Positions 29,477-59,657 of a DNA stretch of 64,000 nucleotides are shown here, piece by piece; within the stretch, counting starts at the first letter, position 1, and the number at the start of each line of letters is the position of its first letter. The stretch is taken from contig NC_013526.1 in the NCBI RefSeq assembly GCF_000025005.1, forward strand, positions 682,001 through 746,000, written 5' to 3'. Made by a program: the position numbers and the translations under genes. The DNA is from Thermobaculum terrenum ATCC BAA-798. GTDB lineage: Bacteria > Chloroflexota > Chloroflexia > Thermobaculales > Thermobaculaceae. A model generated the notes under the pieces. It did not search any database and was not told the origin of the DNA. It saw nothing but the letters and a program-made list of their open reading frames with translations.

Positions 29477-29513
29477 TACCGCCCGGGAAGGCTACTGCAG
29501 GAGGAGTTACAGC

Positions 29514-34191: not shown

Positions 34192-34208
34192 TGCCAAGGC
34201 TGGACTCC

Positions 34209-34222
34209 CACCCCGATGGGTG
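34209..34222 (+). promoter_or_regulatory. Possible additional island operator before the acetate kinase gene
   Basis: CACCC-CGAT-GGGTG, a perfect 5-bp inverted repeat with 4-bp spacer, lies in the 226-bp gap between the ATPase and acetate kinase genes. A related string, GACACCACCCCCAG, follows at 34228. The distance to the start codon (about 200 bp) is larger than at other island promoters and I see no convincing -10 box. The rest of the gap (34223-34417) holds nothing else that I recognise. Confidence 0.4.
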
Positions 34223-34417
34223 GCTGGGACACCACCCCCAGAGATCGCCACGACTATCCGGGAGGATGTGTTGGCAAGCATCTTCCTGGGCTACCATGGT
34301 ACCAGCGATGCAAGGTACTTGGAGCATGCACGATGCAGCTACCGTGGTCCTCTCCGGCAACTACCTCTCGGTGGGGGACGGCCCATCCGAGCCCCACCCA
34401 ACGCGGGAGGTGAGCGC

Positions 34418-35539
34418 ATGCGCGTGCTGACCGTGAACGCCGGCAGCTCGTCCCTGCGCCTAGGACTGTGCGAGGGCGATGGAGCGGTTATCAGGCGGAT
34501 TGCCGAGGTGAAGTACGAGGGCACGCAGATCGTCGTCGCCTGGCTTGAGTCGTTCTTGGCGCAGGCTCCCTCTGAGGTGGACGCTGTCGCGCACAGGGTG
34601 GTGCACGGGGGCGAGCACATGACCTCCTCCCGCCTGATAGACGCGGGCGTTGAGGGAGAGATCGAGCGCCTGGCGCCGCTTGCCCCCCTGCACAATCCTC
34701 CGGCGCTGCAGTGGATCAGGGCGTGCCGCCGAGTGTTGGGGGACAGAGTCCCCCAGGTGGCCGTGTTCGACACCGCCTTCTACTGCCATCTGCCGGCAGT
34801 GGCCAGGGCTTACGCGCTGCCCCTGGAGACCTGCAGGGAGCTTGGGATCCGGAGGTACGGCTTCCACGGGATCGCCCATCAGGCGATGTGGCGGCGGTGG
34901 CGTCAGCTGCGCCCGGATCTAGAGGACGGGGGTAGGGTCATATCCCTTCAGCTCGGCGCCGGCTGCTCGGCAACGGCCATAGCCCGCGGGGGACCTCTGG
35001 ATACCTCCATGGGGTTCTCCCCGTTGGAGGGGCTCGTCATGGCCACCCGCCCGGGCGACGTAGATCCCGGGGCGATGGTGTACCTCCAGAGGGCGCTTGG
35101 GTGGGGGCCCAACGAGCTCGACGACCTGCTCAACAACCACTCCGGGCTGCTCGGGCTGTCCGGGCTCAGTGGGGACATGCGCGTGCTCCTGAGCTCCGAC
35201 AGTCCCGAGGCCAGGCTGGCGGTGGAGCTCTACTGCTACCGGGCCCGCAAGTACGTCGGGGCCTACATGGCGGTGCTGGCAGGCGCAGACGGCATCTTGT
35301 TCGGAGGAGGTGTGGGGGAGCACGCCCCGCAGGTGCGCCAGGCGATCCTGCGCGATATGGAGTGGTGCGGGATAGCGCTGGACCCCGAGGCCAACGCGGC
35401 GGCCACCTCTGGCGAACACCGCATCAGCCTAGCGGATAGCCTGGACGTGTGGGTCGTCCCCGTGGACGAGGCCGCGGTACTGGCCGAGGAGGCCATCAGG
35501 GTGGTCTCAAAGATTGGAGATGAGGGAGGTCAGATGTAG
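34418..35539 (+). CDS. ackA: Acetate kinase
   Basis: 373 residues, slightly shorter than the usual ~400. VNAGSSSLRLGL at residue 6 is the phosphate-binding signature; VAHRVVHGG, VFDTAFYCHLP, RRYGFHGIAHQ and LFGGGVGEHAP match acetate kinase motifs, some with divergent residues (GxGEH rather than GIGEN). The ATG is six bases after GGGAGGT. It converts acetyl phosphate and ADP to acetate and ATP. The phosphoketolase gene starts at the base after its stop codon, so the two form a unit that yields ATP from sugar phosphate without oxygen. Confidence 0.92.
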   Translation: MRVLTVNAGSSSLRLGLCEGDGAVIRRIAEVKYEGTQIVVAWLESFLAQAPSEVDAVAHRVVHGGEHMTSSRLIDAGVEGEIERLAPLAPLHNPPALQWIRACRRVLGDRVPQVAVFDTAFYCHLPAVARAYALPLETCRELGIRRYGFHGIAHQAMWRRWRQLRPDLEDGGRVISLQLGAGCSATAIARGGPLDTSMGFSPLEGLVMATRPGDVDPGAMVYLQRALGWGPNELDDLLNNHSGLLGLSGLSGDMRVLLSSDSPEARLAVELYCYRARKYVGAYMAVLAGADGILFGGGVGEHAPQVRQAILRDMEWCGIALDPEANAAATSGEHRISLADSLDVWVVPVDEAAVLAEEAIRVVSKIGDEGGQM

Positions 35540-37987
35540 ATGACGCAGCGACGCTATGCCCCAGAAGCCATCAGGGTTCAGGAGATGGCAGCTCTGTACC
35601 GGCAGAAGAGCCCGGATTTCGCAGGTTGGGCCGCCGGTTACGGGGTGATAGAGCACACAGATCTCACGCAGGTCCGCGTCTGGGAGATGGCACAGCTGCT
35701 GCACGCCCGCGGGGTGGTGACAGCGCCCGAGGAGGTCTACCGGATACTGGCAGCAGCGGACAGGATCACGAGCGCAGGCATGTGGCTCGTGGTCCACTCG
35801 ACCTACGCGCGCAACGTGTACACCGATGGCCGCGACCTGCACGCGGCCGACTTCAAGCCCAACCCTGAGGGTCACACCGGGGGATCGCTCAACATGGTGC
35901 CGGCCTACGTGGGCTACCTGGCAGCCAATGCCATCTCCCGAGTGACTCGTGCCTGGCTGATGGGACAGGGACATTGCGTGGCCGCCATCGACTCGGTAAA
36001 CCTGCTCGTGGGCAACATGTCCCACGCCCACGCCGAGCGCTACGATCTCTCGGATGCGGGCTTGACCCGCTTCGTGCGTGACTTCTACGCCTACACCATC
36101 ACGCCGGATGGCCGGCCGGAGTCGCCGCGTGGCAGCCACGTGAACGCGCACACAGCCGGGGGACTCATGGAGGGTGGCTACCTGGGGTTTGCCGAGCTCC
36201 AGTACGTGCACATGCCCCTGCCGGGGGAGCGCTTGGTGGCGTTCCTCTCCGATGGCTCCTTCGAGGAGCAGCGCGGCAGCGACTGGGCGCCGCGCTGGTG
36301 GCGGGCCGAGGACTGTGGCCTGGTGTGCCCCATCATGATAGCCAACGGCCGCAGGATCGACCAGCGCACGACTATGGCCCAGCAGGGAGGTGTCGAGTGG
36401 TTCCGAGAACACTTGCGCCTCAACGGCTTCGATCCCTTGGACATAGATGGCAGGGACCCTGCGGCGTTCGCCTGGGCCATCCTGGAGATGGAGGAGAGGC
36501 TCACGGCCCTCGCCGGCGCGGTCCGAGAGGGTGAGATACGCTATCCCGTCCCGCTGCCCTACGCCATAGCCGAGACCATCAAGGGCTATGGCTTCCCGGG
36601 GGAGGGCACCAACCTCGCGCACAACCTGCCCCTCGGGGCTATCCCGGCGTTCGATTTCGAGGCACGCTCGGAGTTCAACGCCGGGGCGCGCAGGCTCTGG
36701 GTGCCCTTGCCGGAGATCGAGCGCGCTGTCAGTATCTTGAACAACCACGAGCTCGCCCACAGGCCGCGAGAGAGGGACAACCCGCTGGCCAAACGTCACG
36801 TGCTCGCCCCTGATCTCCCGGAGCCGGAGTGGCGGGACCCCTCGCCCGAGGCGCGGGTCACTCCGATGGCCGGCATCGACGCCTACTTCTGTCGGGTCCT
36901 CCGCGCCAATCCGGAGCTGCGCCCGAGGGTGGGCAACCCAGATGAGATGCGCAGCAACCGCATGCACGCCACCCTGGAGATGCTAAAGCACCGCGTGACC
37001 GACCCAGAGCCCCACGTGCCCGAGGCCGTGGACGGCAAGGTGATCACCGCGCTCAACGAGGAGGCCGTGGTGTCCGCGGCGCTCGCCAACAAGGGCGGCA
37101 TCAACCTGGTGGTGACCTACGAGGCGTTCGCCGTCAAGATGCTGGGCGCCATCCGCCAAGAGCTGATCTTCGCCCGTCACCAGAGGGAAGCCGGCTACGA
37201 CCCTGGCTGGCTATCGGTGCCGGTGGTGCTGACGTCCCATACCTGGGAGAACGCCAAGAACGAGCAATCCCACCAGGACCCCACGCTGGCCGAGGCCCTA
37301 ATGGGAGAGATGTCCGACGTCTCCCGTGTGGTGTTCCCAGCTGATTGGAACACGGCCAGCGCGACCCTGAGAGCGGCGTACGGGACCCAAGGGCAGATCT
37401 GGGCCGTCGTCGTGCCCAAGAACCCCGTGCCCGTCCGGTTTGAGCCGGATGAGGCCGCGGCGCTGATCGAGCATGGGGCTTGGCGCCTCCGGGGCAAAGG
37501 CGACGAGGAGGTGCTGCTGGGGGCGGTGGGAGCCTACCAGCTGGAGCAAGCCCTGCTGGCCTCGAGGAGGCTCGAGGCCAGGGGTATCCCTCACTCGGTC
37601 GTGTACATCCTTGAGCCTGGGAGGTTCCGGACGCCCCGGGATAGCATCGAGGCGACCCACGTGGCGTCCCCGGAGACCGTGGTGACGCTCTTCCCTCCCA
37701 AGGCCGCGACCCGGCTCTTCCTCGTACACATGAGGCCGGAGCCTTTCCTGGGAACGGTGCGTCCCCTGGACACGGGCCCTGGACGCACGCGTGCGCTGGG
37801 TTATATCAACCGAGGCGGGACGCTCAGCATCGACGGGATGCTGTTTGCCAACCGCTGCACCTGGGCTCACGCCCTGGTCGCGATCGCCGAGGGGCTCGAG
37901 ATCGCGCCCGAGGAGCTGCTGGACCCAGCGGAGCTTGCTGCCGTGCGCGGGCAGGGAGACCCAACCGTGCTCATGGGAGAGCGCTGA
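35540..37987 (+). CDS. xfp: Phosphoketolase (divergent Xfp family)
   Basis: 815 residues, the normal length. Active-site histidines are in register: GHTGG near residue 115, MGQGHCVAA in place of the usual GPGHGGP, SHVNAH with EGGYLG, and NEQSHQDPTLAEALM, which matches the NGFSHQDPG region. The TPP-magnesium motif is altered, reading LSDGSFEEQRGSDW where the family has a GDGEAETG-like motif. It makes acetyl phosphate plus glyceraldehyde-3-P from xylulose-5-P (or erythrose-4-P from fructose-6-P). ATG abuts the acetate kinase stop; GGGAGGT lies upstream. The divergence suggests a separate clade. Confidence 0.85.
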   Translation: MTQRRYAPEAIRVQEMAALYRQKSPDFAGWAAGYGVIEHTDLTQVRVWEMAQLLHARGVVTAPEEVYRILAAADRITSAGMWLVVHSTYARNVYTDGRDLHAADFKPNPEGHTGGSLNMVPAYVGYLAANAISRVTRAWLMGQGHCVAAIDSVNLLVGNMSHAHAERYDLSDAGLTRFVRDFYAYTITPDGRPESPRGSHVNAHTAGGLMEGGYLGFAELQYVHMPLPGERLVAFLSDGSFEEQRGSDWAPRWWRAEDCGLVCPIMIANGRRIDQRTTMAQQGGVEWFREHLRLNGFDPLDIDGRDPAAFAWAILEMEERLTALAGAVREGEIRYPVPLPYAIAETIKGYGFPGEGTNLAHNLPLGAIPAFDFEARSEFNAGARRLWVPLPEIERAVSILNNHELAHRPRERDNPLAKRHVLAPDLPEPEWRDPSPEARVTPMAGIDAYFCRVLRANPELRPRVGNPDEMRSNRMHATLEMLKHRVTDPEPHVPEAVDGKVITALNEEAVVSAALANKGGINLVVTYEAFAVKMLGAIRQELIFARHQREAGYDPGWLSVPVVLTSHTWENAKNEQSHQDPTLAEALMGEMSDVSRVVFPADWNTASATLRAAYGTQGQIWAVVVPKNPVPVRFEPDEAAALIEHGAWRLRGKGDEEVLLGAVGAYQLEQALLASRRLEARGIPHSVVYILEPGRFRTPRDSIEATHVASPETVVTLFPPKAATRLFLVHMRPEPFLGTVRPLDTGPGRTRALGYINRGGTLSIDGMLFANRCTWAHALVAIAEGLEIAPEELLDPAELAAVRGQGDPTVLMGER

Positions 37988-38006
37988 GGAGGGGGAGGGT
38001 GGCTCT

Positions 38007-39179
38007 ATGGCGGCTTTTGGAGACAGAGGCACAGCGAGAAAGGAGCGAGCGATGGACTCACGCAAGCATGCACAGGCGGAAGGGATGATCGAGAGCCTAC
38101 TGGTACCTCTCGATGGCTCGGAGGTCGGTGAGCGAGCGCTGCCCTACGCTCGCGCCCTGGCCCAGGCTACGGGAGCACGCGTCCTGTTGGTCAGGGTGGT
38201 CTGGGAGGACCCGGCACAAGGCGACGCCAGGTCGGACGCTCAGGCTTACCTGCAGCAGGTCGCCGAGGAGCTCGGGCGGAGTGGGGTGGTCCCCCAGGTC
38301 GAGATCCTCGAGGGCGGTGCGGCCGAGGCGATATCGCTGGAGGCACGACGGCGTGGGGCCGACCTGATCGTGATGACCACGCACGGGCGGACGGGTGTGG
38401 GCAGGTGGCTGTACGGCAGCGTCGCCGAGGGCGTGCTGCGCCTGGCGGAGGTGCCGGTGTTGCTGGCCAGGGCCTGGCAGGATCCCACCGTCGCCGACCG
38501 CATCGCCGACCACCCCCGCATCATGGTGCCGCTGGACGGCTCGCCGTTCGCCGAACGGGCCCTGCCGGTGGCCGAGAGGCTCGCGGATGTCCTGCACGGC
38601 GAGCTGGCGCTCGTGCGGGCGGTGCCGGCTCCCGACCTGGTGTTCGGCCCCGACAGGGCGGTCTGGCCGCTGCTGGAGTCGGAGATCCAGGCGGGCGCGG
38701 CCGAGGCCCAGAGCTACCTGGAGGGCCTCGCCAGGCAGATGGCGGAGCGCGGCAGGAGCGTGATGGTGGAGGTGTGCGTGTCCGAGGTGGGCGAGACGGT
38801 CGGCAAGACGCTGGCGGACGCCGCCCGAAGGCGGGACATAGGGCTCATGGTGATGAGCACCCACGGGTTCACCGGGATCAAGCGCCTGCTGCTGGGTAGC
38901 ACGGCCGAGGAGGTGCTGCACGTCGGCGCAACGCCGTTGGTGATGGTACCCCCACGCGCGGCCACGGCGGCCTCGCCGCAGGATGGCGAGGCCCACGTTC
39001 CGGCCGACAGGCCCCGGCTGAGCCTGCAGCTAGGCGCCGATGACGCCTCGCTGATCAGGACAGCGCTGGCAGCGTACGCGCGCACGCTGCCAGCCGATGA
39101 CCAGGAGGCAAGGGCGCGCGTAGCTCGCCTGCTGGACCAGATATCCCGAGCGCAGGGGCAAGCTAATAAGTCCCCTTAG
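38007..39179 (+). CDS. Universal stress protein, two USP domains plus C-terminal extension
   Basis: 390 residues. Domain 1 begins ESLLVPLDGSEVGERALPYA and ends THGRTGVGRWLYGSVAEGVL; domain 2 begins HPRIMVPLDGSPFAERALPVA and ends THGFTGIKRLLLGSTAEEVL. Both have the HG-x9-GS ATP-binding loop. A C-terminal part (LGADDASLIRTALAAYA and on) resembles the tail of another USP encoded at 49436. GGGGGAGGG supports the ATG used here; a second ATG at 38052 behind AAAGGAG is an equally good start. USPs bind ATP and support survival in stress. Confidence 0.9.
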   Translation: MAAFGDRGTARKERAMDSRKHAQAEGMIESLLVPLDGSEVGERALPYARALAQATGARVLLVRVVWEDPAQGDARSDAQAYLQQVAEELGRSGVVPQVEILEGGAAEAISLEARRRGADLIVMTTHGRTGVGRWLYGSVAEGVLRLAEVPVLLARAWQDPTVADRIADHPRIMVPLDGSPFAERALPVAERLADVLHGELALVRAVPAPDLVFGPDRAVWPLLESEIQAGAAEAQSYLEGLARQMAERGRSVMVEVCVSEVGETVGKTLADAARRRDIGLMVMSTHGFTGIKRLLLGSTAEEVLHVGATPLVMVPPRAATAASPQDGEAHVPADRPRLSLQLGADDASLIRTALAAYARTLPADDQEARARVARLLDQISRAQGQANKSP

Positions 39180-39214
39180 GTTCCAACCCAACGATCAAGA
39201 CGTAGGAGGAGATC

Positions 39215-40135
39215 ATGGAAGCCCTAAACACAGAGCCCATCAGGAAGCTGCTCGTGCCGCTGGACGGCTCGCTAGCCGCTGAGCAGGCGCTGCCGTACGC
39301 CGAAGCGTTGGCGCGTCGGAGCGGCGCCGGCGTGATCTTGCTGCGCGCCGTGCCCGAGCCCCGTGGGGTGCCCGACCCGATCGAGGCGCATCTAAGAGAG
39401 GTGCACGAGGCCAATGAGTACCTGGCAGAGGTCGCCAGCCGGCTGGCCGCTGGGGAGATCCAGGTGGAGACCTCCGTGCCGCTGGGCGACGCTGTGCGGT
39501 GGATAGCCGAGGAGGCTCAGCTACGGCAAGCCGACCTGATCGTGATGGCCACGCACGGGAGAACCGGTATAGGCAGGTGGCTGTACGGCAGCGTCGCTGA
39601 AGGGGTCTTGACCCGATCGACCGTGCCCATCCTGATGGTCAGAGCGTGGCAGATGCAGCCACGATGGGAAGCCTTGGCGCACGCACCGCGGATCTTGGTG
39701 CCTTTGGACGGGTCGGCCTTTGCAGAGGAGGCCTTACCGGTGGCCAGGCGATTGGCCGACGCACTGGGCGGCGAGCTGGCGCTCGTGCGCGCGGTGTATC
39801 CTCCATCCGCCACGCTCGCGCAGGAGTGGATGGTGGCCTCCTACCTGGCGGAGGAGTTGGAAACCAGAGAGCAGGAAGCCGAGGCGTACCTGGCGGAGAT
39901 AGCTCGGCGACTAGCCTCGGAAGGACGAGAGACCGAGATCTACGTGAAGGTGGGAGGCCCAGTTGGCGTCATCGAGGCCGTGGCCTCGGAGTGCGAGGCG
40001 GCGCTCGTAGTCATGGCGACCCACGGGCGCACGGGTGCCAGCCGCTTGGTGCTCGGCAGCGTGGCGCACGCCATGCTCTTGCGGAGCCAGGTCCCCATAG
40101 TGCTTACGCGTCCACAGCACCTGCGGCGCGATTGA
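39215..40135 (+). CDS. Universal stress protein, two USP domains
   Basis: 306 residues. Domain 1: RKLLVPLDGSLAAEQALPYA to THGRTGIGRWLYGSVAEGVL. Domain 2: PRILVPLDGSAFAEEALPVA to THGRTGASRLVLGSVAHAML. Both ATP-binding loops are intact. GGAGGAGATC precedes the ATG. It is the last gene of the long rightward operon that starts at 28985 and converges with the response regulator gene across 15 bp. Confidence 0.9.
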   Translation: MEALNTEPIRKLLVPLDGSLAAEQALPYAEALARRSGAGVILLRAVPEPRGVPDPIEAHLREVHEANEYLAEVASRLAAGEIQVETSVPLGDAVRWIAEEAQLRQADLIVMATHGRTGIGRWLYGSVAEGVLTRSTVPILMVRAWQMQPRWEALAHAPRILVPLDGSAFAEEALPVARRLADALGGELALVRAVYPPSATLAQEWMVASYLAEELETREQEAEAYLAEIARRLASEGRETEIYVKVGGPVGVIEAVASECEAALVVMATHGRTGASRLVLGSVAHAMLLRSQVPIVLTRPQHLRRD

Positions 40136-40150
40136 AGGCATGGACACGCT

Positions 40151-40807
40151 TCATTCCTGACCGTCGGGACGACGGCGCACTAGGCCGTGCTGGAGGGCAT
40201 AGGCCACGACCTGCGTGCGGTTCTGGAGGTGCAGCTTGTCCAGGATGTTGCGCAGGTGGTACTTGACGGTGTTCTCGGAGAGTATCAGCCTCTCCGCGAG
40301 CTCCTTGTTCGATGTCACTCCCTGCACAAGCAGCTCGAGGATCTCCTGCTCCCTCTCGGTAAGCACCTCGGGCTCCCGCTCCGCGCGCCCAGCCGGCTTG
40401 CTCATCTCGCGCAGGAGCTTCCGAGCCAGTCCCGGGGTGAAGGCAGGCTCCCCCCTGGAAGCGGCCTCCAGCAGCTCGAAGAACTGGTCCGAGCGCACAT
40501 CTTTGAACATGTAACCCAGCGCGCCCGACTTGACCGCCTCGAAGAGGTCCTCGTCGTCCTCAGATGCCGTCAGGACCACCACCTTCACCTCGGGCATCTC
40601 GGCGCTGATCATCCGCGTGGCCGCCAGGCCGTCCATCCCAGGCATCTTTAGGTCCATCAGCACCACGTCGGGCCGCAGCTCGCGCGCCAGCTCCACGGCC
40701 TCCTTCCCCGTCTCCGCCTCACCTACCACCTCCACGCCCCGCGCCTCCAGCAACGTGCGCAGGCTGTCGCGAAACAGGGCGTGATCATCAGCTATCAGCA
40801 CTCGCAT
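40151..40807 (-). CDS. NarL/DosR-type response regulator
   Basis: 218 residues. Receiver domain MRVLIADDHALFRDSL with acidic pocket DD and phosphoacceptor Asp52 (VVLMDLKMPG); the conserved Thr/Lys region is VVLTASEDDE and later GYMFKDV. The C-terminal LuxR-type helix-turn-helix is LTEREQEILELL to NTVKYHLRNILDKLHLQNR. It is 3 bp downstream of its kinase gene in a three-gene operon behind an island operator. It is the leading candidate to bind the repeated YACCC-N4-GGGTR element; this is inference. Confidence 0.93.
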   Translation of the reverse strand: MRVLIADDHALFRDSLRTLLEARGVEVVGEAETGKEAVELARELRPDVVLMDLKMPGMDGLAATRMISAEMPEVKVVVLTASEDDEDLFEAVKSGALGYMFKDVRSDQFFELLEAASRGEPAFTPGLARKLLREMSKPAGRAEREPEVLTEREQEILELLVQGVTSNKELAERLILSENTVKYHLRNILDKLHLQNRTQVVAYALQHGLVRRRPDGQE

Positions 40808-40810
40808 ACC

Positions 40811-42187
40811 CTACCTCCTAGCAGTTACTCTGGACCGCAGGGGGAACCGCGCTACGACCCTGGTGCCCCTGCCCTGAGCAGCATCTATCTCCAGCTTGCC
40901 CCCTATGCTCTCGGCGCGCTCCCGCATCGTCGAGAGTCCGAACTTGGGGAAGTCCCCACGGGAGGGAGATCCGGGATCGAACCCCACGCCGTTGTCCTCT
41001 ACCGACACCTCCAGCCAGCCATCCTGCTCCCGCAGAGTTACCCTGACGCGAGACGCGCCCGAGTGCTTGCGCACGTTGGCCAGCGCCTCCTGCACGATGC
41101 GCAGCAGCTGCAGATCGGCCCCCGAGGGTAGCCCCAGACCCTCCTCGGAGACGTGTACCTCCAGCTCGGCCTGGATGTTGCTTTGGTCTTCCCACTGCTC
41201 GAGATACGCCCTCAGCGTCTCGAGGAAGCCCCGCTGGGCGTCAGGGGATGTTCGCAGCGCCAGGATGTTCTCCCGCAGATCGGTATAGGCCTCGCGCGCT
41301 GCCTGTTCCATGCGCTCCAGCTCCTGCTCCACACGCTCCAGCTGCCCCGCCTCCAGTAGGGTGCGCACGGCCTGCGTCTTCAGGTTCACGTAGCCCAGCA
41401 CCTGGGCCAGGCCATCGTGCATCTCGCGGGCTATGCGCGCCCTCTCCTGCGATATGGCCAGCTCCAGCACCTGACGGTGCAGGCGAGCGTTCTCGATCGC
41501 CAGCGCTGCCTGGGTAGCGAACCTGGACAGGATCCGCTCGTCCTCCTCGGTGAACTCCTGGGCTCCCTCCTTCTCCGTCAGGTACAGGCTGCCCAATATC
41601 CTACCCCGCGCCTCTATCGGCACGGCCAGGAGGGATCGCATGGGCGGATGGTTGAGGGGGAACCCCACCGAGCAAGGGTGCTGCGTGAGATCGCGTAGGC
41701 GAAGGCTACGGCCCTCCTCCAGCACGATCCCCAGGAGGCCATGCCCTCGAGGGGGCGGGCCTATCCTCTCGCGCTCCTCGGGGGTGATCCCCGAGGTCAC
41801 GAAGTACTCCACCTCCCCATCCTCTCCCAGCACCGATAGGGCTCCGTAGCGCGCGCCCACGAGCTGGCGGGCTCGGTCCACGATCCGCTGCAGCACTTTC
41901 TCCAGCTCGAGCTCCCCCGAGATGTCCAGCCCTGCCTCGTGCAGGGCCAGCAGCTCGCTGTTCTGATGCCTCAGCTGCTCTTGCAGGTGCTCGACGTACC
42001 TGAACACCGCCTCGGAGAAGAGCAGCGCCCCCAGGAGCAGCATCCCCCCGAGCAACAGGTAGCCCGCCCAGGAGGATATGAAGGCATCCCCTAGGGCGCG
42101 CCGGATGAGCTCCAGCAGACCTATGAACAGGATCGGCGCGATCACCGTGACCCACTTCAACCTAGCAAGCGTTAGACGCACTCTCAC
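40811..42187 (-). CDS. GAF-domain sensor histidine kinase (DosS/NarX-like)
   Basis: 458 residues; GTG start. Two membrane helices (residues 12-30 and 40-58), a short coil, a GAF domain (about 95-235), then HisKA_3 with ERARIAREMHDGL (phospho-His257) and an HATPase_c domain ending DNGVGFDPGSP...GTRVVARFPL. The GAF segment GHGLLGIVLEEG, RLRDLTQHPCSVGFPLNHPP, SLYLTEKEGA closely follows the heme-binding GAF-A of mycobacterial DosS/DosT. His170 lies in the HPxSVGF motif where I recall the heme ligand (His149 of DosS) to be. It is therefore a candidate oxygen/NO/CO or redox sensor for the adjacent regulator. Confidence 0.9.
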   Translation of the reverse strand: MRVRLTLARLKWVTVIAPILFIGLLELIRRALGDAFISSWAGYLLLGGMLLLGALLFSEAVFRYVEHLQEQLRHQNSELLALHEAGLDISGELELEKVLQRIVDRARQLVGARYGALSVLGEDGEVEYFVTSGITPEERERIGPPPRGHGLLGIVLEEGRSLRLRDLTQHPCSVGFPLNHPPMRSLLAVPIEARGRILGSLYLTEKEGAQEFTEEDERILSRFATQAALAIENARLHRQVLELAISQERARIAREMHDGLAQVLGYVNLKTQAVRTLLEAGQLERVEQELERMEQAAREAYTDLRENILALRTSPDAQRGFLETLRAYLEQWEDQSNIQAELEVHVSEEGLGLPSGADLQLLRIVQEALANVRKHSGASRVRVTLREQDGWLEVSVEDNGVGFDPGSPSRGDFPKFGLSTMRERAESIGGKLEIDAAQGRGTRVVARFPLRSRVTARR

Positions 42188-42458
42188 ACCCTAGATTATA
42201 GTACGGCCCGGCGACGTCTGCTCGATACGGTGATCTAGCGTCCAGGAGCACAGACAGCAGTTGGTGGTAGCCGTAGGCGAGCCTCCGCGGCTCGAACTCC
42301 ACCCAACGCCAGGATCGCGCGAGCTTCTCCACATCGACGTACCTGGCGACCTCCAGCTCCGAGAGCTCCACTTGCCCCCCCTGTGGCACCCAATCCTCCC
42401 CCTGCACCCTCAAGACTATCACCTGCCGGTCCCGCCCTAGCTCGATCGAGTACCTCAT
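42162..42458 (-). CDS. Small unknown protein co-encoded with the sensor kinase
   Basis: 98 residues. ATG start after GGAAGG with about seven bases spacing. The kinase start lies within its last 26 bases, so the two genes are coupled. The N-terminal half is strand-rich (SIELGRDRQVIVLRVQGEDW), the middle helical (SELEVARYVDVEKLARSW), with no signal peptide or helix that could span the membrane. I do not recognise the family; a role next to the kinase is only inferred from position. Confidence 0.6.
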   Translation of the reverse strand: MRYSIELGRDRQVIVLRVQGEDWVPQGGQVELSELEVARYVDVEKLARSWRWVEFEPRRLAYGYHQLLSVLLDARSPYRADVAGPYYNLGCESASNAC

Positions 42459-42471: not shown

Positions 42472-42556
42472 ACTATAGATATGTTAAGCTAGGGTAACAA
42501 CATCCCATGACCTGCACCACACCCATAAGGGTGGTCCTGCCCTAACCTGTGGGGCG
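42472..42556 (-). promoter_or_regulatory. Island operator pair and promoter of the two-component operon
   Basis: CACCC-ATAA-GGGTG (42520-42533) and TAACC-TGTG-GGGCG (42543-42556) lie 23 bp apart. Two -10 candidates on the reverse strand: TACCCT (42496-42491), which places the operators at about -42.5 and -65.5 as elsewhere, and TATAGT (42477-42472) with TTGTTA as a -35 box (42500-42495, 17-bp spacer). The reverse-strand string CAGGACCACCC spans the proximal copy. Confidence 0.6.
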
Positions 42557-42581
42557 GTCGCTGCCCGCATCGCGCGGCACC

Positions 42582-43697
42582 TCATCCCGAGATGGTCACC
42601 CCTATCAGCCGCCCGACGCCGTAGGTGAGCAGCGCTGCGGCCAGCCCGATCAGCACCTGCCGTAGTCCCGAGTGGGCCGCGTTGCGTCCGGTCAGCAGCG
42701 TGATCGCCGCACCGATGAGGAACAGCGCAAGCGTGCTGAGCACCAGGCTGGCTCCCACGGCCATGATCCCAGAGAGCCACATGAACGGCACGACCGGCAC
42801 GATAGCGCCGAGCGCGAACAGGAAGAAGGACGTACCCGCCGCCACCCATGCGGACCCACCTAGCTCTTCCGGATCTATACCCAGCTCCTCGCGGGAGAGG
42901 GTATCCAGCGCCGCCCCCTGGTCCGCCAGCAGCCTGCTAGCTAGGTCACGGGCCTCCTGCTCGGGAAGGCCCTTGGCCTGGTAGATCAAACGCAGCTCCT
43001 CCTCTTCCTCCTGCGGTATCTCCCGCAGCTCCGCGGCCTCGATCTGGATCTGCCGCTGGTACAGCTCGCGCGCGCTCTGCACGGAGAGCCACTCGCCCAT
43101 CGCCATCGAGCCCGCACCCGCCAGCAGCCCCGCAAGCCCCGTGATCAGTATGGATCGACCCGAGAGCTCCGCACCCGCGACACCCATCACGAGGCTGAGG
43201 TTAGAGACGAGGCCGTCGTTGGCTCCCAGCACTGCCGCGCGCAGCGCGTTCCCTCCTGCCGCCCGGTGCCGACCCTCCAGCTGCGCAAGCGCCGGTCCCT
43301 GTAGTCCCCCAGCGGAGATCGTGCGCAGGATCCGCGCGTGGGAGAGCTCCTCGCCCGACATACCGGTGCCGATGGTCTCCACCTGCCCCGAGTAACCATG
43401 ACTGTCCGCCCGCTCCATGTCGGCGATCGTCGGCAGCACCGCCTGGGGGCCCAGCCAGTAAGCCAGGCGCATCAGCACGCGCGTCCGCCAGCCCGGGCGC
43501 GCTGGCGGTACTGGCACCCCTGCTGCCTGCAGCTTGCGTGCCCAAAACTCGGCATGTGCCTGCTCCGTATCCGCCAGCCTCCTGTACACCTCGGCCAGCT
43601 GCTGGTTACGCTCCGCCCTCGACAGTGCCCTGTACAGCGCCGCGCTGTCCACTTCATCCTGCCAGTTGTGCCGATATCGCTCCACTTCCTGCGCCAT
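42582..43697 (-). CDS. VIT1/CCC1-type iron transporter with N-terminal ferritin-like domain (MbfA-like)
   Basis: 371 residues. Residues 1-150 form a ferritin/rubrerythrin-like four-helix part with EVDSAALYRALSRAE, DTEQAHAEFWA and GEELSHARIL; its acidic and His residues suit a di-iron site. The C-terminal part is a VIT/CCC1 five-helix transporter (RAAVLGANDGLVSNLSLVMG, GAGSMAMGEWLSVQS). Proteins of this fusion type (MbfA) export iron and protect against peroxide. The start at 43697 has GGAGAAGG upstream; an earlier ATG pair at 43733 overlaps a TATGAT box and lacks a ribosome site. Confidence 0.88.
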   Translation of the reverse strand: MAQEVERYRHNWQDEVDSAALYRALSRAERNQQLAEVYRRLADTEQAHAEFWARKLQAAGVPVPPARPGWRTRVLMRLAYWLGPQAVLPTIADMERADSHGYSGQVETIGTGMSGEELSHARILRTISAGGLQGPALAQLEGRHRAAGGNALRAAVLGANDGLVSNLSLVMGVAGAELSGRSILITGLAGLLAGAGSMAMGEWLSVQSARELYQRQIQIEAAELREIPQEEEEELRLIYQAKGLPEQEARDLASRLLADQGAALDTLSREELGIDPEELGGSAWVAAGTSFFLFALGAIVPVVPFMWLSGIMAVGASLVLSTLALFLIGAAITLLTGRNAAHSGLRQVLIGLAAALLTYGVGRLIGVTISG

Positions 43698-45610: not shown

Positions 45611-46480
45611 TCACGCCGCTTGCCGGATCACCGCAGCATCCGCAACGTCCCTCGTATGAGTCGCATATAGCAGAAGCCAGCAAGCGGCCAGCACGGCCAG
45701 AGCCACGGTGCCTATGGCCGTGATCACGAGGAAAGGTACACTGGCAAAGGGATCTCTCCTGATCGCCATCGCTGCTGCCATCCCGGCCACTGCGCCAGCT
45801 TCGCACATCAGGAACCCCAGCAGGCCGTACACCGCTCTGGTAGCAGATCGCCTGCGCATGAGAAGGCCCATGCCAGCGGCCAATGCCGCCGGGATGACGA
45901 AGGCCGTATCCAGCAGCCTAATGACCCAGTAGGTGTTGGGGTCGCCCAGGTACTCCTGGCTAATGTTCGAGCCCGAGAGCACATCCCAAATGGACTTGCT
46001 CCAGGTCAACCCCAGCAGGACTCCCAGGAGTATGAGCACGCCCGAGGTCGTCCACCTTAGTCGGGTCCCCGGCTCGGGTATCTCCCGCCGCGACAGCCTC
46101 GCCCAAGCTGCCAGGGCGCTGGAGGCAGCCAGCACGGTGATCGCCCAGTACAGGGGGAAGAACCGCTCGTTGTTGCCCGGATACCTTGCGTAGTCGACAC
46201 CCAGGACCAGCGAGAAGGCCAGGTACAGGGCATACAAGCTTGGAGCAAGCGCGAGGGGAGGAGCCAGATCGTGCCCTCTGATCGCCAGTAGCCCGGCAGT
46301 TATGGCCATAGGAGCCACGATCAGGAGCGACACTATCTCGCCGCCCACCAATTGTGTCTCTGCACTGGCTGATACCCGGAACCTGATCACCTCCAGGACG
46401 AGCGGTCCCAGCAGCGAGCTGGCCGCCACACACGTGCCCAGCAGGATCAGCCCGAGCCCCCACATACGTTCACTCCTCAC
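45611..46480 (-). CDS. Eight-helix membrane protein, intact paralogue of the interrupted gene
   Basis: 289 residues from the GTG behind AAAGGAGG (an ATG at 46465 behind GAGGAG is the alternative). Eight membrane helices. Shared with the interrupted gene: a GGEIVSLLIVAPM segment (versus GTDLTSLLGIPLL), YALYLAFSLVLGVDY, ERFFPLYWAITVLAA and RLLDTAFVIPAALAAG (versus NALDMAVIVPAVACAG). I know no function for the family. It is first in a leftward series of membrane, PspC, flavodoxin and iron-transport genes. Confidence 0.7.
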   Translation of the reverse strand: MRSERMWGLGLILLGTCVAASSLLGPLVLEVIRFRVSASAETQLVGGEIVSLLIVAPMAITAGLLAIRGHDLAPPLALAPSLYALYLAFSLVLGVDYARYPGNNERFFPLYWAITVLAASSALAAWARLSRREIPEPGTRLRWTTSGVLILLGVLLGLTWSKSIWDVLSGSNISQEYLGDPNTYWVIRLLDTAFVIPAALAAGMGLLMRRRSATRAVYGLLGFLMCEAGAVAGMAAAMAIRRDPFASVPFLVITAIGTVALAVLAACWLLLYATHTRDVADAAVIRQAA

Positions 46481-46875
46481 CCATCTTGCCTCCTTTCGCT
46501 CTCCCCCAATAGTACACCCCTCGCCTCTTATGCGGACCGCGACGTGGGGTGGTTGGTGGAACATAAGCGGGTAGTCTGGCTGCTACCCCAAAAGGTGGCA
46601 TTAGCTGGACTCGCGCTCTGGTCGCCGTACTTGCTGGTCCCGGGGTGGACGATTCATGGCTGGAGGCAGGAGGTAGCGCCACAACGCGTCACTCCGACGA
46701 TGACGTACTCGCAAAGAGTGCCGCGGACCTCGCCCCAAAGACGTACACCATGACCCATCGGCAAGCCAACCAGGTCAGGAGGCAGGGCGATCCGGGTGAC
46801 TGCGAGGTCGGGATCTCATCATGGGGCTGCGCAGCCCGGGCACGGCCCCCTAGCCGGGGCTGCGCCCAAAGGAGC
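46481..46875. other. Long intergenic stretch between divergent operons
   Basis: About 520 bp separate the divergent start codons at 46480 and 47000. Apart from the regulatory sites listed separately, this part contains short hairpin-forming GC runs (GGGCTGC-GCAGCCC at 46824-46837 and GGCCCCCTAGCCGGGGC just after). I see no gene: open frames here have no ribosome site and no plausible protein character. Confidence 0.6.
46509..46598 (-). promoter_or_regulatory. Degenerate island operator region upstream of the 46480 operon
   Basis: On the + strand GGGTAGTCTGGC (46569-46580) and TACCC-CAAA-AGGTG (46584-46597) resemble the island element, 24 bp apart by their centres. Possible reverse-strand -10 boxes are CATAAG (46532-46527) and TACTAT (46514-46509). 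With CATAAG the proximal copy would be about 46 bp upstream, so the fit to the common geometry is weaker than elsewhere. Confidence 0.4.
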
Positions 46876-46942
46876 CACCCCAAGGTGTGGGACGAAACCA
46901 CCTATTGGGGTGTTGTTCCTCTTGGATTACCCTGCGTACACT
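46876..46942 (+). promoter_or_regulatory. Island operator pair and -10 box of the DoxX gene at 47000
   Basis: CACCC-CAAG-GTGTG (46876-46889) and CACCT-ATTG-GGGTG (46899-46912), 23 bp apart. TACACT at 46937-46942 serves as -10, giving a start near 46949 and sites at -66.5 and -43.5. CGAAACCACC overlaps the proximal copy in the expected orientation. Confidence 0.65.
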
Positions 46943-46951
46943 TAGGCTAGC

Positions 46952-46999: not shown

Positions 47000-47761
47000 A
47001 TGCGTGACAGCAAGCAGAACTTGATGTGGGGGGCGTTGGTAGCCGCCATTATAGGAGGTCTGCTGCTCTACTACAGTGGCCTGAGGGGAGCCGATCAAGG
47101 GCTGGCGTTCGCGGCGCTGGTGGTCGGTCTGATCCTCTTCATAGCCACTACCTGGGTGCTAGCGAGCGCCTACAAGCCGGGGGACTACACGCCCAGCCCT
47201 GACGATCTTCCCCATCGCGAATGGAGGTGGTACCAGTTCCTCCGCCACGGGTACAACGCGGCGGTGCTCCTCCTGCCCATCCGCATCTACCTGGGTTACC
47301 TCTGGCTCTCGTCCGGGTGGGATAAGGTGAACAGCCCTGCCTGGACCGGCAGTCAGGCCGGGGCAGCTCTACGGGGGTTCGTGCAGGGGGCGCTGGCCAA
47401 GACGAGTGGCGAGCACCCCGACGTGCAGGGGTGGTACGCCTGGTTCCTGCGAGAGCTGGTGCTGCCCAACGCCACGCTGTTCAGCTACCTGGTGGCGTGG
47501 GGGGAGGTGCTGGTGGGCATCGCGCTGATCCTGGGGGTGCTCACGGGGGTTGCGGCCCTCGTCGGCGGGTTCATGAACGCCAACTTCCTGCTGGCGGGCG
47601 CGGTCTCCACCAACCCCATCATGCTCGCGCTAGAGCTAGTGCTGATCATAGGCTGGCGACCGGCCGGCTGGTGGGGGCTGGATCGATGGATCATCCCGCG
47701 CATCCGGCCGCTGTGGGGCGAGGGCCAGCCCACGAGCGTGCGAGCCCGAGAGGTAACCTAA
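47000..47761 (+). CDS. DoxX-family membrane protein
   Basis: 253 residues. AAAGGAGG precedes the ATG. Two N-terminal helices (residues 10-55) precede the DoxX domain: LGYLWLSSGWDKV, then HPDVQGWYAWFLRELVLPNATLFSYLVAWGEV and NANFLLAGAVSTNP. It is clearly homologous to the DoxX protein at 56264, with an N-terminal extension the other lacks. DoxX proteins are subunits of thiosulfate:quinone oxidoreductases or of oxidative-stress membrane complexes. It stands alone between an island promoter and strong hairpins. Confidence 0.85.
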   Translation: MRDSKQNLMWGALVAAIIGGLLLYYSGLRGADQGLAFAALVVGLILFIATTWVLASAYKPGDYTPSPDDLPHREWRWYQFLRHGYNAAVLLLPIRIYLGYLWLSSGWDKVNSPAWTGSQAGAALRGFVQGALAKTSGEHPDVQGWYAWFLRELVLPNATLFSYLVAWGEVLVGIALILGVLTGVAALVGGFMNANFLLAGAVSTNPIMLALELVLIIGWRPAGWWGLDRWIIPRIRPLWGEGQPTSVRAREVT

Positions 47762-50496: not shown

Positions 50497-50826
50497 CTAG
50501 CGATCCGCATCCTCGGTCAGCACACGCCTACACTCTTCGTATTCCTCGCGGTCGATCTCCCCGCGGGCGTAGCGCTCGCGCAACATGCGCAGCGCGGCGT
50601 CATCCTGGCGTCGGGACAGGGATCGGACTAGACCCACACCCCCCAGGACCAGGGCTCCCCAGAAGAGGAGCATCAGCACCGCGCCCACGGCCCATCCCCA
50701 ACCCCAGTTGTGCATCCAGCCTCCCCACCCCATCATCGTGCCCATGCCCATCAGGGGCATGAGCAACAGCAGGGCGACGGAGCCGACGAGCACGTAGACC
50801 CACACGTTGGCGTCATCCCTATTCAT
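50497..50826 (-). CDS. SHOCT-domain membrane protein
   Basis: 109 residues. Two membrane helices (VWVYVLVGSVALLLLMPLMG and AVGAVLMLLFWGALVLGGVG) flank a Trp/Gly/Met-rich loop (MGWGGWMHNWGWGW). The C-terminal SHOCT motif is ALRMLRERYARGEIDREEYE. AAGGAGGTGAAAG precedes the ATG, which lies eight bases inside the flavodoxin gene end. SHOCT modules occur on many small membrane proteins and probably mediate protein contact; no activity is known. Confidence 0.85.
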   Translation of the reverse strand: MNRDDANVWVYVLVGSVALLLLMPLMGMGTMMGWGGWMHNWGWGWAVGAVLMLLFWGALVLGGVGLVRSLSRRQDDAALRMLRERYARGEIDREEYEECRRVLTEDADR

Positions 50827-51358
50827 CTTTCACCTCCTTGTCGGCAGCGCTATGGCCGCTGAGCCTCGCGAGCTGCCGATATACTTGCTGCACCCAGGAG
50901 CGCATGGCCTCCCAATCGCGGAAGTCGTGCTCCTCCGAGCGCGGCAGCCCAACCTGCTGCCGCGACATGAAAGGTACCATCCTGCCAGCCACCTCCCCGC
51001 CGAAGAGTCCCACGGCCACCGGCCGCACCATCTGGCGCACATCCTCCAGCATCCGCATGGCCTCCTGACGGTGTTGCGCCGTATCCGTGCTCATGACCAT
51101 GCTCAGGAGGAACAGAGCAACGGGCTTCCTAGATAGCTCGTCCTGATACACCCTCACGAACTCCGTGGCCTCGGGCAACCAGTGCATGTGGCGGACGCCG
51201 CTGCCGACCAGCACGGCGTCGTAGGGAGCTACCCTCCGCACCTCGCCCACCGGCATCACGTCCACCTCCGCTCCCAGGCGTCGCAGTTCCTCCCCCATGA
51301 ACTCGGCGACCTCCGCCGTCGAGCCCAATCGGCTGGCGTACGCTACGAGCACCTTCAT
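50819..51358 (-). CDS. Flavodoxin-domain protein (HemG-like)
   Basis: 179 residues. MKVLVAYASRLGSTAEVAEFM is the FMN loop; YDAVLVGSGVRHMHWLPEA and VALFLLSMVMSTDT follow. DFRDWEAMRSWVQQVYRQL matches the tail of the flavodoxin at 44841. GGAGGT precedes the ATG. It leads the operon flavodoxin, SHOCT, USP, USP, VIT, with an island operator upstream. Confidence 0.85.
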   Translation of the reverse strand: MKVLVAYASRLGSTAEVAEFMGEELRRLGAEVDVMPVGEVRRVAPYDAVLVGSGVRHMHWLPEATEFVRVYQDELSRKPVALFLLSMVMSTDTAQHRQEAMRMLEDVRQMVRPVAVGLFGGEVAGRMVPFMSRQQVGLPRSEEHDFRDWEAMRSWVQQVYRQLARLSGHSAADKEVKDE

Positions 51359-51386: not shown

Positions 51387-51429
51387 AGGATAGCGCGTGG
51401 GCTGCCTGGGCACCACACACCTAAGGGTG
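51387..51429 (-). promoter_or_regulatory. Island operator and -10 box of the flavodoxin operon
   Basis: CACAC-CTAA-GGGTG at 51416-51429, read on the reverse strand as CAAGACCACCCTTAGG, with TATCCT (51392-51387) as -10. Predicted start near 51380; site centre about 42.5 bp upstream. Confidence 0.6.
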
Positions 51430-51448
51430 GTCTTGGCGGAGCCAGCCT

Positions 51449-51500
51449 TACCCCTTAGGGTAGTCCTGGCTCACGCCCGCTGCGCAACCGATGGTATAAT
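51449..51500 (+). promoter_or_regulatory. Island operator and extended -10 promoter of the PAS-GAF kinase gene
   Basis: TACCC-CTTA-GGGTA (51449-51462) and TGGTATAAT (51492-51500), an extended -10. Predicted start near 51507; site centre about 51.5 bp upstream. Its centre is 33 bp from the neighbouring copy, so one copy may serve each divergent gene. Confidence 0.6.
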
Positions 51501-56263: not shown

Positions 56264-56869
56264 CTACCGAGGCGTGACCGCCGGAGAGGCATGGCGATGG
56301 AGGATCCTCTCGGCCATCGGTCCCGCGTGCCCCGGCACCCCGACCAGGGGCAGGACGTACCTGTCGAGACCGATGTACCCCGCTATCCTCCAGGCGAGCA
56401 TGAGCCCTATGGCCCCGATGAGCAGGATGGGGTTGGTGGAGACCGCGCCCGCCAGCAGGTAGTTGGCGTTCATCACGGCACCGAAGAAGGCCGCTATCCC
56501 CGTGAGCACCCCCAGGATCAGCGCGATGCCCACCAGCACCTCCCCCCACGCCACCAGGTAGCTGAACAGCGCGGCATGGGGGATCACCAGCTCTCGCAGG
56601 AACCAGGCGTACCACCCCTGCACGTCGGGGTGCTCGCCGCCCGTCTTGGCCAGCGCCCCCTTGGCAAATCCCGCCACCGCCGCCCCGGCCTTGGAGCCCA
56701 CCCAGACTCCAGATGGGTCAACGATCTTCTCCCACCCAGCTCGCAGCCACTCGTAACCCACATAGAGCCTCACCACCAGCCAGAAGATCGCCATCCTGGA
56801 GTCGGCGAACAAGAACCGAGTGATGCTGGGCTCCGGAATCTGTGTGGGGTCTGCCATAGCAACTCTCAT
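56264..56869 (-). CDS. DoxX-family membrane protein
   Basis: 201 residues, four helices. LYVGYEWLRAGWEKI, then HPDVQGWYAWFLRELVIPHAALFSYLVAWGEV and MNANYLLAGAVSTNP, nearly identical over long stretches to the DoxX protein at 47000. The C-terminal ~25 residues are polar and unrelated. GGGAGGT lies seven bases before the ATG. It is headed by a triple island operator and ends at a hairpin. Confidence 0.87.
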   Translation of the reverse strand: MRVAMADPTQIPEPSITRFLFADSRMAIFWLVVRLYVGYEWLRAGWEKIVDPSGVWVGSKAGAAVAGFAKGALAKTGGEHPDVQGWYAWFLRELVIPHAALFSYLVAWGEVLVGIALILGVLTGIAAFFGAVMNANYLLAGAVSTNPILLIGAIGLMLAWRIAGYIGLDRYVLPLVGVPGHAGPMAERILHRHASPAVTPR

Positions 56870-56913: not shown

Positions 56914-57001
56914 AGCATAGCCCTTCGAGCCCTCAGCCAGAACACTCCATGGGGTTGTTCCGCGCTACCTAGGGGGCAGTCTTGCCCTACCCCTTAGGAT
57001 G
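56914..57001 (-). promoter_or_regulatory. Triple island operator and -10 box of the DoxX gene at 56264
   Basis: Three copies spaced exactly 22 bp: ACTCC-ATGG-GGTTG (56944-56957), TACCT-AGGG-GGCAG (56966-56979), TACCC-CTTA-GGATG (56988-57001). The reverse-strand -10 is TATGCT (56919-56914), start near 56907; sites lie at -43.5, -65.5 and -87.5. The furthest copy overlaps the stop region of the upstream USP gene. The middle one contains the inner palindrome GGGCA-GTCT-TGCCC. Confidence 0.6.
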
Positions 57002-57964
57002 GCCGCCCTCCTCACCCACTGCGGCGGCGCTGCCTGTGCCCGCCCCCTCCACGGCACCGCCCGTCGGGCGGACAAGCACCAGGGGAGCTGTGCCCCTGAG
57101 GAGCACCGAGTGCGCCACGCTGCCCAGCAACAGCCGAGTGGTTGCGCCCCTGCCATGCGTGGCCATCACCACCAACGCCGCCCCCACCTCGCGGGCCGCG
57201 TCATCTATCACCTCGACCGGCGCCCCGACGCCCACGTACGTGCGCGGCCTCCTGCCGCCGGACCACCTACGAGCCACCGCCTCCAGGTAGCTCCGGGCGC
57301 CCTCCTCCCGCACCTCCAGCTCCTCCTGGAGGTAGGAGGTCGCCATCCACTCATTGGCGAGCGTGAGGGTGGGGGGATACACGGCCCGCACCAGCACCAT
57401 CTCTCCCCCCAAGGTATCGGCCAGCAGCGCCGCGAATGGGATGGCGGCCTCGGCAAACGCCGAGCCGTCCAGGGGTACCAGCAGCACGGGGGCCTGGCCG
57501 AGCCTATCGACGTCGGGGTTATGTATCCATGCCCGGACCAGCATCACGGGCACCTTCGCCCGCGCGAGCACGCCCTCGGCGACGCTGCCGTACAGGAACC
57601 GAAACACGCCGCTGCGGCCGTGCGTGGTCATCACGATCAGGTCGGCGTCCTGCGCCTCCGCGGCGATCCGCGCGGCCGGCACCCCCTGCAGCACGGACCT
57701 CAGCGCCCTCACCCCCCGGGCCTCGATCCTGCCGGCTATCTCGCCTAGGTAGCTGCGCGCCTCTTGGACCTCAAGGAGGTGTTCTCGCGCCTCCGCGGGG
57801 CCACCAGGCCATTCGGCAGGCACCACCCGCACCAGCAAGATCTCCGCGCCGCTGCGCTCCGCCAGGACCTGGGCATACGGCAGCGCCTGCTCAGCGAGCT
57901 CGGAGCCGTCGAGCGGCACCACAATCCTCCTCAGTGTAGTGGGTTCGTGAGTGTTGGACATCAT
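56987..57964 (-). CDS. Universal stress protein, two USP domains
   Basis: 325 residues. Domain 1: RRIVVPLDGSELAEQALPYA to THGRSGVFRFLYGSVAEGVL. Domain 2: APVLLVPLDGSAFAEAAIPFA to THGRGATTRLLLGSVAHSVL. Both ATP loops intact. AAGGAG lies seven bases before the first of two adjacent ATGs. A Gly/Ala-rich tail follows domain 2. It is the third gene of the leftward set USP, flavodoxin, USP. Confidence 0.9.
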   Translation of the reverse strand: MMSNTHEPTTLRRIVVPLDGSELAEQALPYAQVLAERSGAEILLVRVVPAEWPGGPAEAREHLLEVQEARSYLGEIAGRIEARGVRALRSVLQGVPAARIAAEAQDADLIVMTTHGRSGVFRFLYGSVAEGVLARAKVPVMLVRAWIHNPDVDRLGQAPVLLVPLDGSAFAEAAIPFAALLADTLGGEMVLVRAVYPPTLTLANEWMATSYLQEELEVREEGARSYLEAVARRWSGGRRPRTYVGVGAPVEVIDDAAREVGAALVVMATHGRGATTRLLLGSVAHSVLLRGTAPLVLVRPTGGAVEGAGTGSAAAVGEEGGHPKG

Positions 57965-58681: not shown

Positions 58682-59557
58682 CTAAGGACGCCTGGCAAGC
58701 AGCACCAACGGGGCGGCGCCGCAGCGCAGCACCTCGGTCGCCACGCTGCCCAGCACCAGCCGCTCGAGGCCGGTACGAGCGTGCGTGGTCATCACCACCA
58801 GCCCCGCCCCGTGGCCACGCTCCGCCCGGCATATCTCCCTCCCCGGATCGCCGAGGGCCACGTCCACCTCGGCGTCCACCCCGTGCCGCCCGCAATCGCT
58901 GGCAACCCTTTGGAGGTAGCTCTCGGCCTCCAGCCGCGCCACCTCTTCGGGGGCCTCTGAGTAGCGGAAGGTATCAGGGGCTGTTTCGGTCAGGACCGCC
59001 CCCTGCTGCGCTCTCGCGCTGGCCACTCTGAACAGCACCAACTTGGCCGGAAGCATCCTCGCGATCTCTCTAGCAAGGGGCAAGGCGGCCTCGGCGAAGT
59101 CCGTGCCGTCCAGGGGCACCAAGATGGTGGCGACCTCGGTCGGCGCCATCGACTCATCAGTCCACCCTCGGACCAGCATCACCGGTGATCGAGCGCGAGC
59201 GAGCACGCCCTCGGCGACGCTGCCGTACAACCATCTGCCCACACCCGTCCGCCCGTGCGTGGTCATCACGATCAGGTCGGCTCCCTCCAGGATCGACGCG
59301 CGCACGATCACCTCCACCGGCTCCCCTATGTGGACGGTCGCCTCGACCTTCGTACTAGCATCCCTCAGCTGGGATGCCTTCTCGTCCAGGTATCGCTCAG
59401 CAGCGTTGAACGCCTCGAGCAGGTTCCCCGCCGACATATGCGGCGAGACCGCCCTCAGCAGGACCAGGCCGCCGGATGGCCCCTTCGCCAAGAGTTTGCC
59501 CCAAGGGATCGCCTTCTCCGAGAGATCAGAGCCATCCAGCGGTACTAGCACCCTCAT
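58682..59557 (-). CDS. Universal stress protein, two USP domains
   Basis: 291 residues. Domain 1: MRVLVPLDGSDLSEKAIPWG to THGRTGVGRWLYGSVAEGVL. Domain 2: ATILVPLDGTDFAEAALPLA to THARTGLERLVLGSVATEVL, with the loop His-Gly changed to His-Ala. GGAGG lies seven bases before the ATG. First gene of a leftward set, headed by an island operator pair. Confidence 0.9.
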   Translation of the reverse strand: MRVLVPLDGSDLSEKAIPWGKLLAKGPSGGLVLLRAVSPHMSAGNLLEAFNAAERYLDEKASQLRDASTKVEATVHIGEPVEVIVRASILEGADLIVMTTHGRTGVGRWLYGSVAEGVLARARSPVMLVRGWTDESMAPTEVATILVPLDGTDFAEAALPLAREIARMLPAKLVLFRVASARAQQGAVLTETAPDTFRYSEAPEEVARLEAESYLQRVASDCGRHGVDAEVDVALGDPGREICRAERGHGAGLVVMTTHARTGLERLVLGSVATEVLRCGAAPLVLLARRP

Positions 59558-59583: not shown

Positions 59584-59657
59584 CACCCTCATGGTAGTAC
59601 GGGGAGATCGCGGCCCGACACACCCCAAGGTGTGGTTCTCAGCCACCCGCTGGGGTA
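59584..59657 (-). promoter_or_regulatory. Island operator pair and -10 box of the 59557 USP operon
   Basis: CACCC-CAAG-GTGTG (59621-59634) and CACCC-GCTG-GGGTA (59644-59657), 23 bp apart. The reverse-strand -10 is TACCAT (59596-59591), start near 59584; sites at -43.5 and -66.5, the same as at the DoxX gene at 47000. Confidence 0.65.

Follow-up and report, generated by a model that had tools for sequence, protein, structure and literature searches.

A Probable DosRS-like Activator Regulon with a Distinct Candidate Operator in a Stress-Gene Cluster of Thermobaculum terrenum

1. Introduction

Why do several promoters in one cluster of stress genes share the same palindromic site, and which protein would read it? 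The question is raised by a stretch of about 30 kb in Thermobaculum terrenum, a bacterium of the Chloroflexota whose genome comprises 3.1 Mb in two contigs. The whole stretch of DNA analysed here, called the window throughout, covers 64 kb (C2:682001-746000) with a coding share of 90%; open reading frame starts across it were called with a simple home-made gene caller, and operon extents were taken from gene order. Genes near the sites encode two DoxX proteins, universal stress proteins, flavodoxin-type proteins, P-type ATPases, acetate kinase and phosphoketolase. An earlier note on this DNA had read the sites as operators lying at a fixed distance from predicted transcription starts, after which the promoters are named below. 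Coordinates of operators (18 bp each) and -10 hexamers are window positions, with the strand in brackets.

2. A Palindrome Shared by Six Operons

The shared element is an 18-bp palindrome, about ACCACCCCTWAGGGGTGGT, found upstream of six operons in the window, and its candidate operator form, CYACCC-N4-GGGTRG, differs from the DosR and OsdR boxes. A palindromic matrix seeded with the six proximal and three distal window sites returns 15 matches of at least 10 bits, against 4.0 expected in first-order Markov sequence, and all 8 of its matches above 18 bits are intergenic. A plain pattern search of the window likewise gives 12 matches where 2.7 are expected, a count that none of the shuffles reaches. 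A second matrix, drawn exclusively from 16 sites beyond the window (one at the T. terrenum nirK locus, the other 15 in different genomes), found 8 window matches of at least 16 bits against 0.025 expected, every one intergenic, and gave each of the six proximal sites at least 13.8 bits; these 16 sites had first been detected with the window matrix, and the two site sets are thus not fully independent. The regulator-linkage test described in Section 5 is the cleaner one.

Genome-wide, matches that differ from CYACCCNWWNGGGTRG in no more than one letter occur at 20 distinct places, and 8 of these lie in the window, which makes up 2% of the genome, a count that is partly circular in that the pattern was derived from window sites. 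Most of the one-mismatch matches checked outside the window are intragenic, and these are probably chance occurrences. A matrix with its half-sites reversed gave a weak signal (p 0.011), and base composition therefore accounts for little. A regulator of the CRP/FNR type was considered and rejected: CRP-like matches occur in the genome, with none inside the window.

3. Promoter Architecture

The earlier note had placed the proximal site centre 42.5-43.5 bp from the start in six promoters, and had conceded that its choice of -10 boxes was partly guided by this distance in three of them. A -10 matrix was therefore run over the downstream interval of 12-58 bp from every proximal centre, leaving the claimed distance out of account. 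In five of the six promoters the best hexamer lies either 30.5 bp (centres 28920.5, 51422.5 and 56949.5) or 31.5 bp (centres 46905.5 and 59627.5) from the site centre, and the joint -10 score of the promoters is reached in 0 of 5000 shuffles. A -10 that begins at this distance implies a start some 42.5-43.5 bp from the centre; relative to the starts of the earlier note, the centres stand at -42.5 (28963, 42484, 51380 and 56907) or -43.5 (46949 and 59584). The five hexamers are CATAAT at 28951-28956 (+), TACACT at 46937-46942 (+), TATCCT at 51387-51392 (-), TATGCT at 56914-56919 (-) and TACCAT at 59591-59596 (-). Two of the three promoters exposed to the admitted bias, 28963 and 46949, are thus upheld by the unguided scan. 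The third, 42484, is not: its candidate TACCCT at 42491-42496 (-), 30.5 bp from the centre at 42526.5, ranks fourth and is outscored farther downstream by TATAGT and TAACAT, with better hexamers at 40.5 and 49.5 bp, such that the assignment is ambiguous. The companion claim that -35 boxes are poor or absent holds, the matches at proper spacing scoring -1.9, 3.7, -0.9, 0.4 and 1.2 bits where the maximum possible is 10.4.

Outside the window, the 30.5-bp offset recurs at the kinase promoter of three related Thermomicrobiaceae MAGs (L074, L082 and L083), which are orthologous and count as one observation, and at a further locus (L097). Among the 16 outside sites it is the top one of all offsets (7 of 4000 shuffles), with strong hexamers at three sites; most nirK-linked sites have no -10 at the fixed distance. 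The offset rule is conserved in part across genomes.

Upstream of the proximal site, a second copy 22-23 bp away had been claimed for five promoters, and the copies found there differ widely in strength. Strong partners stand 23 bp upstream at 46882.5 (17.3 bits) and 59650.5 (16.1 bits), and a moderate one, also at 23 bp, at 42549.5 (7.3 bits); at 22 bp, the partner of centre 28920.5 is a half-site (28898.5, -0.1 bits) and that of 56949.5 is poor (56971.5, -4.6 bits). The third copy reported near 56994 is a good one (56994.5, 14.2 bits) lying 45 bp from the proximal centre. Promoter 51380 has its partner, at 51455.5 and 21.2 bits, 33 bp upstream, or about three turns instead of two. Taken jointly, the 22-23 bp spacing is beyond what 5000 shuffles produce, and spacings of 22-23, 33 and 45 bp correspond to roughly two, three and four whole turns of DNA, which fits dimers aligned on roughly one DNA face. 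The proposed activator layout is accordingly supported by the fixed placement, the missing -35 and the whole-turn copies; its two dimers on one face would apply clearly to three promoters and less clearly to the others.

At promoter 46949, the proximal operator ACCACCTATTGGGGTGTT (46897-46914, +) and the distal operator GCCACCCCAAGGTGTGGG (46874-46891, +) precede a gene for a DoxX-family membrane protein at 47000-47761 (+) (Pfam PF07681, 4.9e-9). Promoter 59584 is built in the same way, with a proximal operator at 59619-59636 (-) and a distal one, ACTACCCCAGCGGGTGGC, at 59642-59659 (-), upstream of a double-domain universal stress protein (58682-59557, -; PF00582, 2.9e-47). A second DoxX-family protein (56264-56869, -; PF07681, 1.4e-9) follows promoter 56907, whose proximal operator (56941-56958, -) is accompanied by the weak copy ACTGCCCCCTAGGTAGCG (56963-56980, -) and the third copy GCCATCCTAAGGGGTAGG (56986-57003, -). 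At promoter 51380 the proximal operator (51414-51431, -) and the distal ACTACCCTAAGGGGTAAG (51447-51464, -), the window's top site with the external matrix, precede a flavodoxin-domain protein (50819-51358, -; PF12724, 2.1e-32) whose gene is the first of a co-directional series that also encodes two universal stress proteins. That 51455.5 might act divergently on the plus-strand gene at 51535 was rejected, there being no -10 at the fixed distance.

The proximal operator of promoter 28963, ATCACCCCTTGGGGTGGG (28912-28929, +), is matched by the matrix, and its half-site copy lies at about 28890-28907 (+). From this promoter a co-directional run extends over 28985-40135 (+), encoding an unknown protein, a membrane protein, a Ca2+-type P-ATPase, acetate kinase, phosphoketolase and two universal stress proteins. 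An extra operator-like site stands before the acetate kinase gene (34418) at 34207-34224 (+), with 15.7 bits and no -10 at the fixed distance; the run is possibly one regulon unit with this site, centred at 34215.5, as an internal element. Divergent from promoter 28963, the segment 25462-28820 (-) encodes a molybdopterin oxidoreductase, whose nearest models are NasC (below its cut-off) and formate dehydrogenase alpha, together with a QmoC-like membrane protein. Another operator-like site, at 46582-46599 (-) with 14.7 bits, precedes 45611-46465 (-) and has its best -10-like hexamer at 25.5 bp.

4. The Two-Component System inside the Cluster

The remaining promoter, 42484, appears to begin the operon of a two-component system, with its proximal operator, a candidate site for the operon's own regulator, at 42518-42535 (-) and the moderate distal copy ACCGCCCCACAGGTTAGG at 42541-42558 (-). 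The first gene (42162-42458, -) encodes a 98-aa protein with no Pfam or NCBIfam match, and is followed by genes for a histidine kinase (40811-42145, -) and, downstream of it, a response regulator (40151-40807, -). Adjoining this operon, 42582-43697 (-) encodes a rubrerythrin-like N-terminus fused to a VIT1-type iron transporter domain.

The kinase comprises an N-terminal hydrophobic region, a DosS/DosT-like GAF domain, HisKA_3 and HATPase. Among solved structures the GAF domain is best matched by DosT (2vzw, E 3.9e-39) and by DevS entries at about 1e-35; it is the only one in the protein (residues 80-217), which sets the kinase apart from proteins with a tandem GAF-A/GAF-B arrangement. By alignment, His166 and Tyr188 correspond to the haem-ligand His149 and distal Tyr171 of DosS, and Ser104 occupies the position of Glu87 in DosS and Gly85 in DosT, residues whose roles in the haem pocket have been described (PMC4082495). 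It is speculation by analogy with DosT that the small residue at position 104 might help to keep an oxygen complex stable. The signal is probably redox state or one of the diatomic gases O2, NO and CO, with O2/NO responsiveness the probable case. Among the named sources of related kinases are Sphaerobacter and Thermomicrobium MAGs. The haem His is absent in the paralogous kinase on the other replicon (L075) and in most distant relatives, and the signal may differ between members of the group.

The regulator has a receiver domain with the conserved phospho-Asp and a GerE/LuxR helix-turn-helix, as is typical of the NarL/FixJ family. Besides NarL and VraR it matches DevR, and among solved structures VraR (8e-45) and NarL (3e-37) are the closest, nearer than DevR. 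This NarL/LiaR-type protein is very probably what binds the palindromes, a reading of the sequence that draws on the linkage described next.

5. The Motif and the Regulator across Genomes

For the linkage test, 27 loci were collected by similarity to the kinase, and at each of them the 350 bp that follow the top-ranking regulator homologue were scanned with the window-only matrix. Over all of them the Fisher p is 5e-17, with 12 loci at p<0.02; since the loci are partly related, this combined p overstates the number of independent events. At 20 control loci with other HisKA_3 kinases, p is 0.40. When the first 40 bp past the stop codon are left out to avoid terminators, the linkage remains at p 2e-13 against 0.72 in the control. 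Matches range from Thermomicrobiales to MAGs labelled Dehalococcoides and Anaerolineales, and the recognition helix, SENTVKYHLRNIL, is nearly invariant in the closer regulators. The motif is tied to the regulator across Chloroflexota.

In the closest genomes a site stands near Cu nitrite reductase (nirK) genes, and in several relatives it separates the regulator gene from a nirK orthologue, or from DoxX and nirK genes that form a pair. Upstream sites are missing from most DoxX and NirK homologues of other genomes, and only the closest NirK orthologues have one. Elsewhere in the T. terrenum genome, a 22-bit site separates nirK from a ferredoxin gene (L077 6458-8570; C2 about 296458-298570), and the nirK product matches PDB nitrite reductases at E 1.5e-105. 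This nirK has an extra C-terminal cupredoxin-type domain and is divergent from the ferredoxin gene; the one near-perfect operator between them may serve either gene or both. On the other replicon, a paralogous locus (L075 7680-12154; C1 about 1196680-1201154) carries a kinase-regulator pair, then an operator, then cydAB.

6. Comparison with Known Systems

The closest likeness is to DosR(DevR)-DosS/DosT of Mycobacterium tuberculosis, which also combines a kinase with a haem-type GAF domain and HisKA_3-type core with a NarL-family regulator and multi-copy palindromic boxes, the proximal one lying over the -35 region. There too the operon of the regulator carries a site, and universal stress proteins are among the targets. 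In that system the start-proximal box overlaps the -35 element and the boxes are closely packed and cooperatively bound (PMC3029386). There are also differences. The window operator is of a CACCCC type and that of DosR of a GGGACT type, and the DosR consensus has no match within the window. DosS and DosT have two GAF domains where the window kinase has one, plus an N-terminal hydrophobic segment. The window regulator is nearer to VraR and NarL than to DevR among solved structures, and DosR is not among helix-turn-helix matches below 1e-9. At the helix positions that we take to be the DNA-contacting Lys179 and Asn183 of DosR, the regulator has Asn and Tyr. That the cluster works like DosRS is well supported; that it is DosRS is not.

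LiaR/VraR and NarL, the nearest solved structures, are served by kinases that sense envelope stress or nitrate and lack a haem GAF domain, and their operators differ. The OsdR-OsdK system of Streptomyces coelicolor (PMC5069765) resembles the window in its sites grouped near the regulator genes, in targets that include stress genes and universal stress proteins, and in its link to oxygen, whereas its consensus, AGGGCCGATCGGCCCT, occurs in the window only at chance level.

7. A Model for the Regulon and Its Alternatives

Taken together, these observations make it likely, in our judgement, that the cluster is a DosRS-like, probably O2/NO-responsive and autoregulated activator regulon with a new operator, in which the palindromes are bound by the regulator encoded at 40151-40807. 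The kinase at 40811-42145 would sense O2, NO or CO, or redox state, through its DosS/DosT-like haem GAF domain and phosphorylate the regulator. A regulator dimer would then bind the proximal site at -42.5 or -43.5, compensate for the missing -35 contact and recruit RNA polymerase (class II activation), and further dimers on the copies 22-23, 33 or 45 bp upstream may strengthen binding cooperatively. The fixed placement near -42.5, the missing -35 and the whole-turn upstream copies support a class II layout for a NarL-family regulator. The system would activate the operon that encodes it together with the cluster around it (universal stress proteins, DoxX, flavodoxins, Ca2+-type P-ATPases and acetate kinase/phosphoketolase), and elsewhere sites of this type stand near nirK and cydAB. 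Against this reading count the better -10 elsewhere at promoter 42484, the two weak distal copies and the one spacing of 33 bp, as well as the sites at 34215.5 and 46590.5 and most nirK-linked sites, which lack a -10 at the fixed distance.

A further objection concerns the identity of the binding protein, since the paralogous regulator on the other replicon (C1:1198052-1198690) is 70% identical to the window regulator and might recognise these sites too. The two recognition helices hardly differ (SESTVKYHLHNIL in the paralogue), and there is a site immediately downstream of the paralogue's gene (L075 9781.5). That the window sites are bound chiefly by another regulator, most plausibly this cydAB-linked paralogue, or by both, is nevertheless unlikely: the window pair is encoded within the cluster and has a site at the promoter of its operon, and the cydAB-linked site scores lower, at 11.7 bits. 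We think it quite improbable that the sites are repressor operators. They span about -34 to -51, where a bound repressor would block RNA polymerase at the -35 region just as well, but these promoters have no usable -35 and would be weak unaided, an activator would account for the constant -10 distance and the repeated copies, and the known haem-kinase system with this layout activates transcription (PMC3029386). There is very little to be said for the palindromes as RNA hairpins, intrinsic terminators or chance features of GC-rich intergenic sequence. Some matches right after regulator genes do look hairpin-like, as at L090 12014.5, 14 bp past the stop codon; the window sites, however, precede genes and keep a fixed distance to -10 boxes, and shuffles exclude chance. 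The terminator reading is further disfavoured by the linkage signal, which persists more than 40 bp past the stop codon and has no counterpart at the control kinase loci.

8. Implications for Chloroflexota

On a wider scale, we lean towards a Chloroflexota-wide two-component family in which the sensor is, in part of the family, related to that of DosRS and the regulator is not, with a distinct CYACCC-N4-GGGTRG operator, often fixed at -42.5, that would govern hypoxic/NO respiration (nirK, cydAB) and a dormancy-like stress cluster. If this is true, a dormancy-regulon layout, with its DosR-type promoter arrangement and stress gene set, would recur beyond the Actinobacteria, run by another regulator that reads another DNA code. 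As far as the literature shows, it would also be the first time that an operator and a promoter rule are defined for any gas-responsive regulon of the Chloroflexota; literature searches, whose scope lay outside most subscription journals, found no description of such a system in the phylum. Prediction of regulons would come within reach for lineages that are largely uncultured.

Two loci, L084 and L086, carry close kinase relatives (52% and 49% identical) in MAGs labelled Acidobacteria/Thermoanaerobaculia, a placement that suggests transfer or mis-binning; the second of these loci has a 17-bit site as well.
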